From Methanoculleus chikugoensis (lineage in GTDB: Archaea > Halobacteriota > Methanomicrobia > Methanomicrobiales > Methanoculleaceae): a stretch of 63,169 nt of DNA. The notes below the pieces were generated by a model. The model ran no database searches, was not told where the DNA came from, and worked only from the letters and a program-made list of their open reading frames with translations. The stretch spans positions 1 through 63,169 of the forward strand of contig NZ_FMID01000044.1 of the NCBI RefSeq assembly GCF_900095385.1. Reading direction: 5' to 3'. This document shows, piece by piece, positions 53,750 to 63,169 of this stretch (position 1 is the first letter of the stretch; each line of letters starts with the position of its first letter). The position numbers and the translations under genes were made by a program.

Positions 53750-53820
53750 GCATCGATGGTCTAGTGGTATGACTTTGGCCTTCCAAGCCAATAGCCCGGG
53801 TTCAATTCCCGGTCGATGCA
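53750..53820 (+). tRNA. tRNA-Gly (anticodon TCC)
   Basis: 71 nt without encoded CCA. The 7-bp acceptor stem GCATCGA/TCGATGC is perfect; discriminator A. Anticodon stem TTGGC/GCCAA has loop CTTCCAA, anticodon TCC. T-arm CCGGG TTCAATT CCCGG is complete. Uninterrupted. Confidence 0.95.
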
Positions 53821-53821
53821 T

Positions 53822-53896
53822 GGGGCTCGTGGTCTAGCTGGTTATGACGTCGCCTTCACACGGCGGAGGTCTCGAGTTCGAATCTCGACGAGCCCA
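53822..53896 (+). tRNA. tRNA-Val (anticodon CAC)
   Basis: 75 nt. Acceptor stem GGGCTCG/CGAGCCC, discriminator A, no encoded CCA. Anticodon arm TCGCC-TTCACAC-GGCGG gives CAC; T-loop TTCGAAT. It follows tRNA-Gly after a single base, so the two are probably transcribed and processed together. Confidence 0.95.
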
Positions 53897-53910
53897 CTCG
53901 CAATATGAGC

Positions 53911-58587: not shown

Positions 58588-61500
58588 ATGTCAAAATCAA
58601 TTTCACCAGTACATCCATTTGCATTAGGCCCAGGGGGGTCTAGATTTGAGCTATTAGTAGCGACGTTTTACTTAACATCTATGTTAAAAGGAGAACTTCC
58701 GTTTGGCTTTGAAAAAGGCGGATTGATCTTTTCAGTAAAGTTGCAACAACGGAACAAAGGTAATCCCGTAGATGACATTGTAATCAAAGCTGAAAAGGGT
58801 ACTTTATCAGTTCAGGTCAAACATTCGATACGATTCACCAACCGGAAACCCAGACCTAATGGGAAACCACCAGAATTTTATGATGCTCTCTCCCAATGTT
58901 GGGATCTCTACAATCGTAAAACGTTTAATAAAGACACCGATTGCTTCGGCATCGCGATTGACGCGGCAAATTTGTTAGGTAAGAACAGGAATGATATTTT
59001 CGATACAATAACCTGGGCAAAAAATGAGATCTCTGTAGTTGCTTATCTTCAACAACTTGAAAAATTCAAAGCGAAGAAGAAATATTTTGAAATCTTCCAA
59101 GACCTTTTGGCAGACATCTCAAAAGGGCCTGTGCATGATGAGATAACTTGGGATTTTATACGCCATCTCATAATTTTGCCATTTGACTTCCATCAAACTT
59201 CAGGATACAGTGGCAATGAATTACGGAATAAACTTCTTGATCTCGTAAAGCATCGCTCTGTCGACAACGCGATGGCTTTATGCTCCAGAATTTATGATTT
59301 AGCAACCACTTACGCAATCACAGGGGGCGAGTTTGATTCTTATTCGTTGGAGAAGCAACTACCATCAAATATCTATGTTCCCATCAATAACACTCTAACA
59401 TCTTATGTGCTCCAGAAAAACTTAGCATTTCAGCTTAAACAAAAAATCACCCGTGAAAAAAACTCCAAAAAATATATTCCTCGGATCTTTACGGAAACAC
59501 CCCATGCAAAGGATGAACTCCGCTTGTTTTCAGATCCGGTATTACTTACTCAAAAGATTGTTGAAGATTTACAAAAGATTGATATCTATCTGTATAATGA
59601 GATAACTTGGAAACTAGATTTTCCGCAGATAAACATTGTATTGCCAGATAATTTTCAGATCCCCAACACCCTTCAGGAGGTAATAGTAGCATCTGACGCA
59701 CTTAAGAGATATGTATCGAAACTCAAGACTGATTTGAAGGATATGGATCCTGAAAAAGGAGCAAAAGTTTCACAGCACATAAACTATTCAAATAGATCTC
59801 TCTTTGAGGAAATCAAATATCTCTTGTGGGGATGCAACCATTCAATCCAGCATCGTCTTGAAAACGTCGAACGTCACTTAGACATTTTAAGTTCTCAGAT
59901 TTTAATTGTAGAAGGAAAAGCCGCTTCAGGTAAGACCAATTTCATATGCAATTTCGCGGATACAACGTTAAATAGCCGCCAACAAACATCATTCTATGCC
60001 ACAGGGTATGACTTATCAATTGAAGCGACAACGTCTCTAAAAGGTTATCTAGTAAACCGCTTTAATGACGAGTATGATGGAAAATTAGCCCCCTTTTTAA
60101 AAGATGTCGAAAGAATTAGCCTTAAGGACAATAAGCCGTTATTAATAATCATTGATGGAATAAACGAACACTCAGATCTCGCTCACTTTGCTCGGCAACT
60201 AGAGCAATTGATTGAAGATTTTACATCGGATATTCATGTTAGATTCATATTAACATGCAGATCAGAGTACTTCGAAAAACGCTTTGTTAACCTGAGAAAC
60301 GCAAGTTTCAAGGACAAAACGACATTTATTGAAGATCTAACCCATAACCTCGCGCCAATCCATAGAAAATTCATGCTTAACGCATACTTCCGTTATTTTA
60401 GGATCAATTGTCATCCCAGTAGAGAAGTTGTTGACCGTTTTGTGGGCGATCCATTGATACTACGGCTATTTTGTGAGGCTTACGAACCTGAAGAAAAGAG
60501 TGAAACTGTCACAATCGAGCCCCTTAACAATATCATCCTAGATATTCTTTTCGAGCAGTATAACCTGAGAATTACCAAACGATTTGAGGAGAAATACCCT
60601 GAAAGTGGTTTTACGAGGAAATATAAGAAACTGTTATACGAGCTGGCTAATTACATGCTTATGGAATCTTCATTTTCAAATGTCCCTGTAGAATCAATTC
60701 CCAATGAATTACATGACATTGTTAACATGCTTGTTAATGAAGGAGTAATGTTGCGAAAAGATTTGGCGGATAAAACATCAATTATTGAAGATTCTGAAGT
60801 AATTAATTTCACTTATGACGAATTTCGGGACTACATCTTAGCGAATTTTCTAATATATACAATAGCACCCAGTAATTTTGAGAAATTTAAAGAAATATAT
60901 TCAAAGTCAATCTCTCCGGACTCCCCAGTAGCCGAAGGACTCGAAAAATATACGTTCATACTGTCTCGTAAAAATAAGAATCACGCAATTCTCGGATTTC
61001 TGGAGTCTATCGACAATTATGCAGATATATTCTTAAATGGGATATTCCTTGTGGATAACTCGTTGATCTCTGAAAAAGATCTCGAATTGATAAGAACACT
61101 CTTCCAAAAGGATAGTCATCACGCTCAACAGATATATTCAAGAGTAAGAAATAGAAGAAGCAAAAAGGACTTTCCACTTTTGAATATCTGGTTATTTCTC
61201 GATTTAGTCGCTCAATTTGATAAAAATGACTATATTCGTCTCATAAATCCGATTTTCTCACCACGTTATGGTCGACTAGAGAATACTTGCACGAGTATTG
61301 AAAGCATCCTAGAAGGATGTACAGCGGACACGATCGAAAGGGACAATAATCTTTCGCTACTTGAACTATTATTATGCCTATCCCCTGTTCCACCAGTATA
61401 TTCTCAATCCATAACGCCATTTGAACTATTTTTGAGGATTGCAGATGACCATCCGAAACCTGCCATATCCCTTATCAAAAAATATTTGAGAGAGAAAGAG

Positions 61501-61689
61501 TCATATGTCTCGCAAAAATTATGGGCTGAAATAGCGTTCTCAAGCTCGAAATTTAAGGTGAAAGAGATTTATGATATTGCAATTCAATTACAGAACGAGT
61601 TATTAATAAAAGATAATCCGGAATTATCTGAGGCACTCCGTATATTTTTATCAAGATGCACAGAACTAACGCTTGTTGAGGCAGATTGA
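58588..61689 (+). CDS. Nuclease-STAND NTPase fusion, candidate antiviral (Avs-like) protein
   Basis: 1033 aa. The N-terminal ~110 residues resemble the Cap4/DUF4297 dsDNA nuclease: early GGSRFELLVATFYL (Glu21), a D-D pair (62-63) in NPVDDIVIK, and QVK (76-78). The middle is a P-loop NTPase: Walker A GKAASGKT (443-450), Walker B LLIIIDGINE (Asp523, Glu527), then ILTCRSEYF (Arg558). The C-terminal ~350 residues are helical and may sense a ligand, as in Avs proteins that detect phage proteins. AT-rich composition, unlike neighbours, implies transfer. ATG 58588 preferred over GTG 58537 and ATG 58564. The next gene follows after 1 bp. Confidence 0.75.
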   Translation: MSKSISPVHPFALGPGGSRFELLVATFYLTSMLKGELPFGFEKGGLIFSVKLQQRNKGNPVDDIVIKAEKGTLSVQVKHSIRFTNRKPRPNGKPPEFYDALSQCWDLYNRKTFNKDTDCFGIAIDAANLLGKNRNDIFDTITWAKNEISVVAYLQQLEKFKAKKKYFEIFQDLLADISKGPVHDEITWDFIRHLIILPFDFHQTSGYSGNELRNKLLDLVKHRSVDNAMALCSRIYDLATTYAITGGEFDSYSLEKQLPSNIYVPINNTLTSYVLQKNLAFQLKQKITREKNSKKYIPRIFTETPHAKDELRLFSDPVLLTQKIVEDLQKIDIYLYNEITWKLDFPQINIVLPDNFQIPNTLQEVIVASDALKRYVSKLKTDLKDMDPEKGAKVSQHINYSNRSLFEEIKYLLWGCNHSIQHRLENVERHLDILSSQILIVEGKAASGKTNFICNFADTTLNSRQQTSFYATGYDLSIEATTSLKGYLVNRFNDEYDGKLAPFLKDVERISLKDNKPLLIIIDGINEHSDLAHFARQLEQLIEDFTSDIHVRFILTCRSEYFEKRFVNLRNASFKDKTTFIEDLTHNLAPIHRKFMLNAYFRYFRINCHPSREVVDRFVGDPLILRLFCEAYEPEEKSETVTIEPLNNIILDILFEQYNLRITKRFEEKYPESGFTRKYKKLLYELANYMLMESSFSNVPVESIPNELHDIVNMLVNEGVMLRKDLADKTSIIEDSEVINFTYDEFRDYILANFLIYTIAPSNFEKFKEIYSKSISPDSPVAEGLEKYTFILSRKNKNHAILGFLESIDNYADIFLNGIFLVDNSLISEKDLELIRTLFQKDSHHAQQIYSRVRNRRSKKDFPLLNIWLFLDLVAQFDKNDYIRLINPIFSPRYGRLENTCTSIESILEGCTADTIERDNNLSLLELLLCLSPVPPVYSQSITPFELFLRIADDHPKPAISLIKKYLREKESYVSQKLWAEIAFSSSKFKVKEIYDIAIQLQNELLIKDNPELSEALRIFLSRCTELTLVEAD

Positions 61690-61690
61690 G

Positions 61691-62143
61691 ATGATTGAAA
61701 AAATCGTAATAAATGACAGGGAAAGCGAATATTATACGTTCATGGACCCTCGGGATGGTTTTCTAGTCTGCCTACCGAAGAACTGTACCTTACGTGAATT
61801 CTTTAACGCTACGAAGAGCAAACCCAACACGTACTCTTCAATTTTGGTAGAAAGATTATATCATGGATTAGTAACTGTGACAAAAAACATCACTGAAGAG
61901 TATGATAAATATTACTCAAAAGAATACAAAGATCTATCAGAATTTCTATTTTGGAAGTATTGCATTCCGGAAAAGATCTCTAAAAAGTGTATTTCACAAT
62001 TACAACATGATGAAGTTTTGCTCTATAGCACTTACTCTTCGGGATGCACCTCAACGGTCCACGCATTTATCGAAAGCGATGTGATGTTAGAATCTCTTCA
62101 GCAAATATTACTGAACATTCGGAGGATGCGCTATGAAAGTTAG
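61691..62143 (+). CDS. Unknown protein of the AT-rich cassette
   Basis: 150 aa. Starts 1 bp after the large gene's stop and overlaps the next start by 11 bp, so it is in one translation-coupled operon. The sequence is mixed helix/strand with scattered Cys (VCLPKNC, KKCISQ, SSGCTSTVH). I do not recognise a family. It may be an adaptor or regulator of the nuclease-NTPase or of the downstream radical SAM enzyme. Confidence 0.6.
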   Translation: MIEKIVINDRESEYYTFMDPRDGFLVCLPKNCTLREFFNATKSKPNTYSSILVERLYHGLVTVTKNITEEYDKYYSKEYKDLSEFLFWKYCIPEKISKKCISQLQHDEVLLYSTYSSGCTSTVHAFIESDVMLESLQQILLNIRRMRYES

Positions 62144-62501
62144 AAGCGATTTCGTCACAAACAGTTCAACAACATCCTTTGTGATAATCTCAAAAGGGAA
62201 ATTTACCGAGAAGAAATTCCTAGATCTTGCTGGCGTAAAGAAGGGGTCCCCGTTACTCCCAATCTTTAAAAAGCTGTATCTTTTGTTGTTAGAAAATATG
62301 ACCCCCGTAAGCGATCCTAGTATGCTTGAAAGCAACACAGAATTGATGCAATTAATCCACGAAAGCTTGAGCGAAGGAAAGTTAGTCTATTCCGGTCGGT
62401 TATCAAGCGATAGTGACATATTAGAATCATATTTTTGTACGGATTCTTTTGAGATGAAAAATGAGAAATTATACATTAACGGAATTAATTGTGTTTGGTG
62501 A
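62133..62501 (+). CDS. Small protein with N-terminal R-x2-F-V-T-N-S-S-T-T-S-F motif
   Basis: 122 aa. It begins MKVRSDFVTNSSTTSFVI. N-termini of the form R-x2-F-(V)-(S/T)-N-S-S-S-S-S-F recur in many bacterial and phage proteins of unknown function, and I know no established role. The rest has mixed charges and no recognised domain. It overlaps the upstream gene by 11 bp and the downstream radical SAM gene by 4 bp (GTGA). Confidence 0.65.
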   Translation: MKVRSDFVTNSSTTSFVIISKGKFTEKKFLDLAGVKKGSPLLPIFKKLYLLLLENMTPVSDPSMLESNTELMQLIHESLSEGKLVYSGRLSSDSDILESYFCTDSFEMKNEKLYINGINCVW

Positions 62502-63169
62502 TCGAGATTCTGGTTCACAGATACTACAGTAAGCAACACTACTCTACTATCTTCAATCCCAATACCGGATTTTTTTTGAGGTTGGAAGAGCCAGGTTATT
62601 CGTTGCCATTTTGGTCTGAAAGTGGTCCGGAACTATTGGATATCTCAATTACACGATGGTGCGACAGGAAGTGTCCAAGATGCTATCGCAAATCAGACAC
62701 CTCGGGAGCCCATATGTCAATTCGTGACTACGACCAAATCATGAATCAAGTTAAAAACCTCCCTGTTAATCAAGTGGCATTAGGAGGTGGAAACCCCAAT
62801 CAACACCCTGATTTCTGCGAAATTTTGCGTAGTACTAGGGAGGAATATGGCATAGTTCCTTCCTATACCACAAATGGGAGAGGTCTGACTCAAGATGTCA
62901 TCGAATCGTCAAGAAAATACTGCGGTGCAGTGGCAGTCAGCGCCTACCCTCCGTATCAGGAATTGGAAGAAGCAATTGAAAAATTGACCTCAAACGGAGT
63001 CAAAACCAATATCCATTTCGTCTTAGATAAAAAAAGCGTGATGACAGCAATAGCTTGGTTGAAAGAGCCCCCGGCATTCCTATCAAAAATTAATGCCATC
63101 ATTTTTCTCAACTATAAACCCCTTGGAAGGATCGAAGACGCTATTGGTCTTTTAAAAGAAAGCAATCGG
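62498..63169 (+). CDS. Radical SAM enzyme with atypical GGGNPN loop (partial, 3' end missing)
   Basis: First 224 codons; the gene runs off the window. The radical SAM cluster motif is Cys55-x3-Cys59-x2-Cys62 (WCDRKCPRCYRKS). In place of the usual GGEP there is GGGNP followed by NQHPDF (residues 96-106), followed by TTNGRGL and AVSAYPPY. The first ~45 residues precede the barrel. It starts with GTG overlapping the previous stop. Product unknown; peptide or small-molecule modification is possible. Confidence 0.75.
   Translation, partial: MIEILVHRYYSKQHYSTIFNPNTGFFLRLEEPGYSLPFWSESGPELLDISITRWCDRKCPRCYRKSDTSGAHMSIRDYDQIMNQVKNLPVNQVALGGGNPNQHPDFCEILRSTREEYGIVPSYTTNGRGLTQDVIESSRKYCGAVAVSAYPPYQELEEAIEKLTSNGVKTNIHFVLDKKSVMTAIAWLKEPPAFLSKINAIIFLNYKPLGRIEDAIGLLKESNR

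Follow-up and report, generated by a model that had tools for sequence, protein, structure and literature searches.

What might a STAND ATPase of the immune type have in common with a radical S-adenosylmethionine (SAM) enzyme encoded in the same tight run of genes? The question is raised by the end of contig NZ_FMID01000044.1 of Methanoculleus chikugoensis, whose 63,169 bases were analysed as a single stretch, referred to here as the window. The list of open reading frames (ORFs) of the window holds four tightly spaced genes that end at 63169, all of them on the plus strand, as are the cassette features located below. Gene 1 (58588-61689) encodes an effector-STAND protein of the NLR/Avs type with 1033 aa. 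After a gap of 1 bp it is followed by gene 2 (g2, 61691-62143), which encodes a small protein, and by gene 3 (g3, 62133-62501), which overlaps gene 2 by 11 bp and encodes a small tagged protein of 122 aa with an alpha/beta fold. Gene 4 (62498-63169), which starts with GTG at 62498 and overlaps gene 3 by 4 bp, encodes a SPASM-type radical SAM enzyme (Radical_SAM, E 5.4e-14), and is cut after codon 224 of about 346 because the window ends where the contig ends. The gene starts are backed by an archaeal orthologue (locus L114) in a Methanomicrobiales metagenome-assembled genome (MAG), which is 59-74% identical. We propose, with a probability of roughly 0.6, that the cassette is a mobile abortive-infection operon directed against parasites, most likely viruses, and that it is centred on an NLR-like STAND ATPase for which g3 and g2 would act as sensor or licensing subunits.

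The core of gene 1 is related to antiviral STAND (Avs) and NLR proteins. Residues 362-837 match the Avs2 models of PADLOC (E 1.6e-22), and the Avs2 entry of the PDB, 9o4e, matches the linker and NTPase of the protein (E 9.1e-14). Foldseek searches with its predicted structure (AlphaFold2, AF2; predicted local distance difference test score, pLDDT, 85) returned NLRC4 (E 1.4e-6) and Avs4 (E 4.3e-6), and NLRP3 was also matched. The NACHT profile is weak in the window protein and above cut-off in L114 and in another archaeal locus, L229. All 44 cassette STAND proteins match an Avs2 model of PADLOC, and the cassette proteins have the Walker A and Walker B motifs of a STAND NTPase in their centre. 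In the window the Walker A motif is GKAASGKT (residues 443-450, 59914-59937), with A445, G448, K449, T450 and N451 invariant in the 44 STANDs, and the Walker B region spans residues 518-527 (60139-60168), with D523, N526 and E527 invariant in the same set. An earlier note on this DNA, made from its letters, had named this P-loop and a resemblance of gene 1 to Avs proteins; the P-loop is present, and the resemblance is supported by profile (Avs2) as well as by fold (Avs4).

Homology among the STAND proteins begins at a KYIPxxFxE linker and runs onward from there, while the N-termini differ. In the window protein the linker reads KYIPRIFTETP (residues 295-305, 59470-59502), and its Y296 and E303 are invariant in 44 STANDs with unrelated N-termini. 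At the other end, the Avs2 profile match stops at residue 837 of 1033, corresponding to profile position 744 of 1504, and only about 270 residues remain after the core. Since the match ends half-way along the profile, the long Avs2 sensor is missing from gene 1, and where Avs2 has it there stands a short region that is all-helical in the AF2 model (residues 765-1033, 60880-61686). The curated Avs2 model of NCBIfam (NF041813) did not give a full-length match, reaching 61.6 bits against a cut-off of 1000 over residues 362-764 only.

In front of this core lies a swappable N-terminal effector, which in the window takes up approximately residues 1-200 (58588-59187) and appears to be a putative PD-(D/E)xK-like nuclease with a predicted alpha-beta-beta-beta-alpha-beta order. 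Over the first 124 residues the AF2 model has helices at 18-34 and 96-108 and strands at 47-53, 63-68, 71-81 and 118-124. Two putative active-site motifs, D62-D63 (58771-58776) and Q76-V-K78 (QxK, 58813-58821), are placed on strands 2 and 3 of the predicted domain, as is expected of PD-(D/E)xK, and their D62, D63, Q76 and K78 are invariant in five relatives. A homologous N-terminus occurs among the cassettes only in L068, L072, L105 and L114. Searches of the domain against Pfam, the PDB and PADLOC gave no clear match to a named nuclease family, the best PADLOC match being PDC-M54A (E 0.0022 for the window, 3.4e-6 for L114). It was suggested in the earlier note that these residues form a Cap4/DUF4297-like signature. 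The motif itself is there, and the concern that the domain might turn out to lack a nuclease fold did not materialise, the predicted order of secondary structures being that of PD-(D/E)xK; membership of the Cap4/DUF4297 family was not confirmed, as neither Pfam nor the PDB gave a match and PADLOC gave no clear one.

Elsewhere the effector is exchanged. We have found that the N-termini of the STAND proteins cluster into 14 unrelated classes, including SMEK, trypsin-like protease, TIR-like/deoxyribosyltransferase-like, PNP phosphorylase and alpha/beta hydrolase classes assigned from Pfam, transmembrane and helical classes named by eye, and the PD-(D/E)xK-like class of the window. The SMEK nuclease class is recognised by Pfam at E of about 1e-38, and in the trypsin-like protease class GxSGxP is present in 12 of 12 members and the His motif was found in 10 of the 12. 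DUF4062 in L229 adds a fifteenth class, and the effector labels need 15 changes on the STAND core tree. A recent natural effector swap is seen in L094 (6668-9190) and L100 (4650-7112), in which unrelated N-termini give way, at one junction, to STAND cores of high similarity, and in which g2, g3 and the enzyme are 86-90% identical. An exchangeable N-terminal effector, as is expected of an antiviral STAND or NLR-like protein, is thus present, and such interchangeable modules are the hallmark of suicidal immune effectors.

The two small proteins are probably paralogues, since the profiles of g2 and g3 recognise each other. The untagged one, g2, has the signature EYxxYYxxEYxxF, with an invariant E and a near-invariant YY..EY among 64 loci. 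The tagged one, g3, is 122-140 aa long among the cassettes and is conserved over its whole length in the 64-row alignment, up to a C-terminal Trp122 (62496-62498), the last residue, which is W in 62 of the 64 loci. In its AF2 model (pLDDT 86) residues 1-7 fall below 50 and the last few residues are also of low confidence. Conserved termini that are predicted to be disordered are as would be expected for partner-bound peptides. The sequence of g3 belongs to no Pfam family and has no convincing PDB match; because its fold also found no match below E 0.001 in the PDB or among the viral models of BFVD, no function could be borrowed for it. When pairwise distances were compared across the 64 loci, g3 and g2 each followed the STAND protein with a Mantel r of 0.92, against 0.85 for the enzyme, and partial correlations controlling for the enzyme, calculated by hand, were about 0.73 for g3 and 0.77 for g2. 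This co-divergence with the STAND core is consistent with direct contact of g2 and g3 with it, as judged from sequence. One fusion of g2 to a STAND protein, at the C-terminus of the latter, is seen in L121; a second candidate of this kind, in L070, contains ambiguous bases and was left out of the count.

The most constant feature of g3 is found at its N-terminus, MKVRSDFVTNSSTTSF (62133-62180), a proposed modification or recognition site. Over the 64 loci it follows the near-invariant consensus [MV][KR]xxx[DG][FY][VI][ST]NSS[ST]T[SCN][FY], which in short reads DFV(S/T)NSSSTSF and in the window includes DFVTNSSTTSF, and N10, S11, S12 and T14 are invariant. In genome loci selected by the enzyme, 82 of 82 tagged ORFs lay within 3 kb of it, and in viral contigs selected in the same way 34 of 38 loci had one or more such ORFs in the same range, with up to seven nearby. 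When the tag was removed, 296 tagged proteins, drawn in part from loci fetched by g3 and so partly dependent on the query, fell into 51 mutually non-matching clusters. Independently of these queries, the viral collection was searched with two DNA patterns that represent only the tag. In all 47 stretches so chosen, several of which are near-copies of one another, the tag was in frame and a few residues behind a start codon. The enzyme was visible in 26 of these 47, and five more lie on contigs known to carry it.

Distant relatives of the enzyme in phages and a plasmid are accompanied by an N-terminal TNSSS-type tag, mostly RxGxxTNSSSSHS. In the phages Ma-LMM01, RM378 and YS40 this tag is on a gene neighbouring the enzyme, and in a Methylobacterium plasmid (L064) and Salmonella phage Arash (L233) a TNSSSS tag is fused to the enzyme itself; the relatives with such a tag in or near the enzyme are at L064 6557-7882, L233 3995-5425, L234 3989-4486, L235 6040-6810 and L236 4015-4968. 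A conserved, enzyme-linked leader on varied bodies, as is found in precursor-maturase pairs of ribosomally synthesised and post-translationally modified peptides (RiPPs), is therefore at hand, and from this association in the sequences we infer that the radical SAM enzyme modifies the tag. Two observations on tagged proteins and their neighbours may be added. Directly after the tag of many viral proteins comes a body rich in Cys that resembles a zinc ribbon (CEICG...CxNGHxFC; L204, L207, L209, L213, L217, L218 and L228), and in two gut viral contigs (L027 5720-7054, L029 6547-7959) Pfam identifies a reverse transcriptase fused to SLOG (YAcAr) near the enzyme and tagged proteins.

The enzyme has the CX3CX2C motif of radical SAM proteins, which binds the [4Fe-4S] cluster and SAM, as CDRKCPRC (62660-62683), and this motif is present in 71 of 71 full-length relatives. 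The SPASM motif CX2CX5CX3C occurs in 67 of the 71; the SPASM part of the window's own enzyme lies beyond the contig end, and the full-length orthologue in L114 (9992-11032, 346 residues) has the SPASM cysteines. The nearest solved sequence is PDB 5v1q, aligned over the core and the SPASM domain, which we take to be SuiB, a streptide (peptide) maturase. If loci cut by a contig end or of other origin are not counted, two changes are enough to explain the STAND label on the enzyme tree, a pattern compatible with one recruitment and one loss.

Enzyme relatives are also found outside the cassettes. In several gut-phage relatives (L026 8010-9074, L027 7989-9074, L028 7962-9077) the cysteine motif is altered, being CVCxxKCxxDC-like and not CX3CX2C. 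Well over 100 records of Klebsiella, Enterobacter and related phages contain a full-length enzyme relative at about 28% identity, and in the one such phage examined, Klebsiella phage KP15_135 (L232 4881-6083), the tag was not seen within 5 kb. On a Picosynechococcus plasmid (L065 7022-12548) three consecutive genes encode a radical SAM protein other than this enzyme, a DUF6375 protein and an Avs-like STAND of 1420 residues; the tag is absent from this separate pairing of radical SAM and STAND.

It was asked in the earlier note whether the four genes recur together, and they were found to do so very widely. An enzyme-alignment scan of about 85,000 species gave 80 genome loci, of which 70 have a STAND gene and 73 have g3 beside the enzyme, in the order seen in the window. 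A single-sequence search with gene 1 among genome contigs had found no match because the patterns of gene 1 are not conserved; it was the enzyme alignment that succeeded. Of the ten loci without a STAND gene, half (L113, L122, L123, L127, L145) have an enzyme that lies no more than 0.5 kb from where the sequence ends, and the other half (L129, L133, L137, L140, L142) come from deltaproteobacterial MAGs and have between one and four tagged g3 genes each. Hosts with an assigned phylum represent about 14 bacterial and two archaeal phyla. On alphaproteobacterial plasmids STAND, two small genes and enzyme follow one another as in the window, and the pAt plasmid of Agrobacterium tumefaciens Ach5 carries the cassette as Ach5_RS23250-RS23265. 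A third archaeal cassette, with the DUF4062 effector, is on the minus strand of L229 (9292-13805), in a genome from the window's own phylum, and may or may not be of the same lineage as that of L114. Matches to g3 were found in 3 of 393 genomes of the window's phylum, its own included, one of them being tag-only. In 395 sampled Bacteroidota genomes the core was found only in the query genome, with one other match (E 1e-31) in a frame of 1598 residues, and each of seven whole genomes has the core once at cassette strength. The four-gene unit is therefore rare and patchy yet very widespread.

The cassette is also set off from its surroundings by base composition, as had been claimed before, with a G+C content (GC) of 0.378 against 0.629 for the rest of the contig. 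Chunks of 4.6 kb outside the cassette have a mean GC of 0.631 (standard deviation 0.019) and a minimum of 0.574. A contaminating contig had been put forward beforehand as a possible source of such a shift. This explanation was ruled out, as the shift sits inside one archaeal contig: ORFs recognised by eye as aIF2-gamma-, Rpb7- and Kae1-Bud32-like, that is archaeal core genes, share the contig with the cassette, and in L114 the cassette is likewise a block of 32-36% GC following DNA of 54-61%. It is thus an acquired block, and a GC lower than that of the flanks was seen in 67 of 72 loci. The cassette belongs to a mainly bacterial system that was acquired horizontally and has entered archaea. 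Two claims of the earlier note have to be given up on this account. The system was called archaeal, against which there are now about 14 bacterial phyla versus three archaeal genomes, and the small proteins and the enzyme were regarded as accessory, whereas they form a constant part of the unit; the four coupled genes with their gap and two overlaps are all as it described them. Adjoining genes for tRNA-Gly and tRNA-Val (53750-53897), about 4.7 kb before the drop in GC, mark a possible integration neighbourhood.

The abortive-infection operon that we propose might work as follows. In the resting state the radical SAM enzyme would modify, or at least bind, the disordered tag of g3. Modified g3, joined by g2, would then bind the STAND protein at its short C-terminal region, as a sensor or licensing subunit that replaces the long built-in sensor of Avs proteins. 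An infection cue would alter the g3/g2 complex or its state of modification, and ATP-dependent oligomerisation of the STAND protein, as suggested by its domain content, would activate the N-terminal effector. In the archaeal window the activated PD-(D/E)xK-like nuclease would break down DNA and bring the infected cell to a halt. The defence system suggested in the earlier note is borne out in its STAND/Avs relationship and in the effector swapping; its antiviral function we only infer.

Several points weigh against this proposal. The nuclease assignment draws on topology and motif only, without a profile or domain-level structure match. The case for contact of g2 and g3 with the STAND protein is made mostly by co-divergence, which shared inheritance alone could produce, along with one clear fusion. 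The association of tag and enzyme may reflect binding rather than catalysis, and as both also occur without a STAND protein in phages, their original role need not be immunity. Finally, the window ends at the enzyme, and neither an infection trigger nor a defence-island context was shown. An alternative that would fit the same anatomy is that g3, once modified by the enzyme, holds the STAND protein off, so that a drain on SAM, iron-sulphur or reducing power, or a block of the enzyme, would leave g3 unmodified and let the effector fire; the operon would then guard metabolism and not recognise viral proteins. Such a guard would give a reason for an immune operon to include a modifying enzyme as a separate gene, which is otherwise hard to explain, and the enzyme does depend on SAM and Fe-S clusters, as its conserved CX3CX2C and SPASM cysteines indicate. 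The sequence data point neither to an active nor to an inactive STAND protein in the absence of the enzyme, and we consider the guard a tentative, rather unlikely alternative.

STAND proteins also serve in regulation, and a module for regulation or programmed death in stress or development, not directed at viruses, could be built of the same parts. The very sporadic distribution, low GC, plasmid carriage, effector swapping and Avs relationship are instead typical of conflict systems and make such a module distinctly improbable. It might also be thought that the cassette is a RiPP operon, in which g3 is a precursor matured by the enzyme and released as a bacteriocin or signal under the regulation of the STAND protein. 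The tag and SPASM enzyme do recall precursor-maturase pairs, as do the sets of up to seven tagged proteins beside the enzyme in viral contigs. Against this, g3 has 122-140 aa, is folded and is conserved throughout, its last residue included, the four-gene unit has no peptidase or transporter gene, and the STAND N-termini include nucleases, proteases and TIR-like modules; we regard a RiPP operon as very unlikely. Viperin-like chemistry, by which the enzyme would make an antiviral nucleotide or other small molecule while the STAND protein is a neighbour with a separate function, was suggested by weak matches of the enzyme to the prokaryotic viperin (pVip) models of PADLOC (E 1.8e-12). These matches cover the generic radical SAM core only. 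The NCBIfam viperin model requires 180 bits and the enzyme reaches 38.6, its full-length relatives contain SPASM, and 5v1q gives the best alignment; the enzyme was accordingly rejected as a viperin, and a small-molecule role, which would also leave the tagged protein unexplained, is hardly credible.

What the tag and enzyme do more generally can be addressed apart from the abortive-infection proposal. At about even odds, we suggest that they represent a general tagging chemistry, in which SPASM enzymes modify a portable N-terminal (T/S)NSSS(S/T) tag on unrelated proteins, commonly in phages and mobile elements, and that, on a single occasion, one branch of it entered an NLR-type immune operon, in which licensing or triggering of the STAND effector falls to the modified small protein. 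If this is true, a radical SAM enzyme that controls an immune NLR by modifying a protein would, to our knowledge, be met here for the first time. Immune STANDs could then be gated by a post-translationally modified partner instead of a built-in sensor, and a widespread, unnamed tag-and-enzyme pair would gain its first biological setting. The cassette would join the field of prokaryotic immunity by NLR-like proteins to that of protein modification by radical SAM enzymes; nothing else was found that links the two. It is directly testable because complete operons sit in culturable, tractable bacteria such as the laboratory strain A. tumefaciens Ach5, and the natural effector swaps provide built-in readouts.

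In the literature, with few subscription journals covered and preprints possibly differing, we found no description of a tag in this sense or of a STAND-radical SAM unit. The nearest published idea is found in the FtsH ternary conflict systems, in which a radical SAM gene was proposed to modify a peptide effector (eLife 2020, PMC7159879). The conflict setting and the proposed role of the enzyme are alike, whereas those systems have a vWA-MoxR/FtsH core, and no STAND-g2-g3 unit appears in the passage on them. Prokaryotic viperins are likewise radical SAM enzymes at work in defence and give weak profile matches, but the cassette family has SPASM, scores far below the viperin cut-off and comes with a tagged partner protein. 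With SuiB and other SPASM peptide maturases the enzyme shares the CX3CX2C and SPASM cysteines, while it belongs to a STAND operon and presumably acts on a tag at the N-terminus of a folded protein.

On the STAND side, bacterial and animal NLRs (NACHT proteins, NLRC4, NLRP3) are alike in their NACHT/STAND core, fold match and N-terminal effector, and differ in that the cassette protein has no visible leucine-rich repeats and comes with separate small partners and, as proposed here, a dedicated modifying enzyme. Avs1-Avs4 are reported to recognise phage proteins such as terminase and portal directly (PMC12931631). Avs2 and other antiviral STANDs share with the cassette protein the order of effector, STAND and helical C-terminus, with a homologous linker and NTPase core. 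Unlike Avs2, at about 1500 aa, the cassette STANDs are mostly 820-1080 aa long, do not have its long C-terminal sensor and are encoded next to two small proteins and the radical SAM enzyme, so that PADLOC would see the cassette at best as a partial Avs2. The cassette is then a variation on known STAND immunity and contains within it a kind of protein tagging that may be new.

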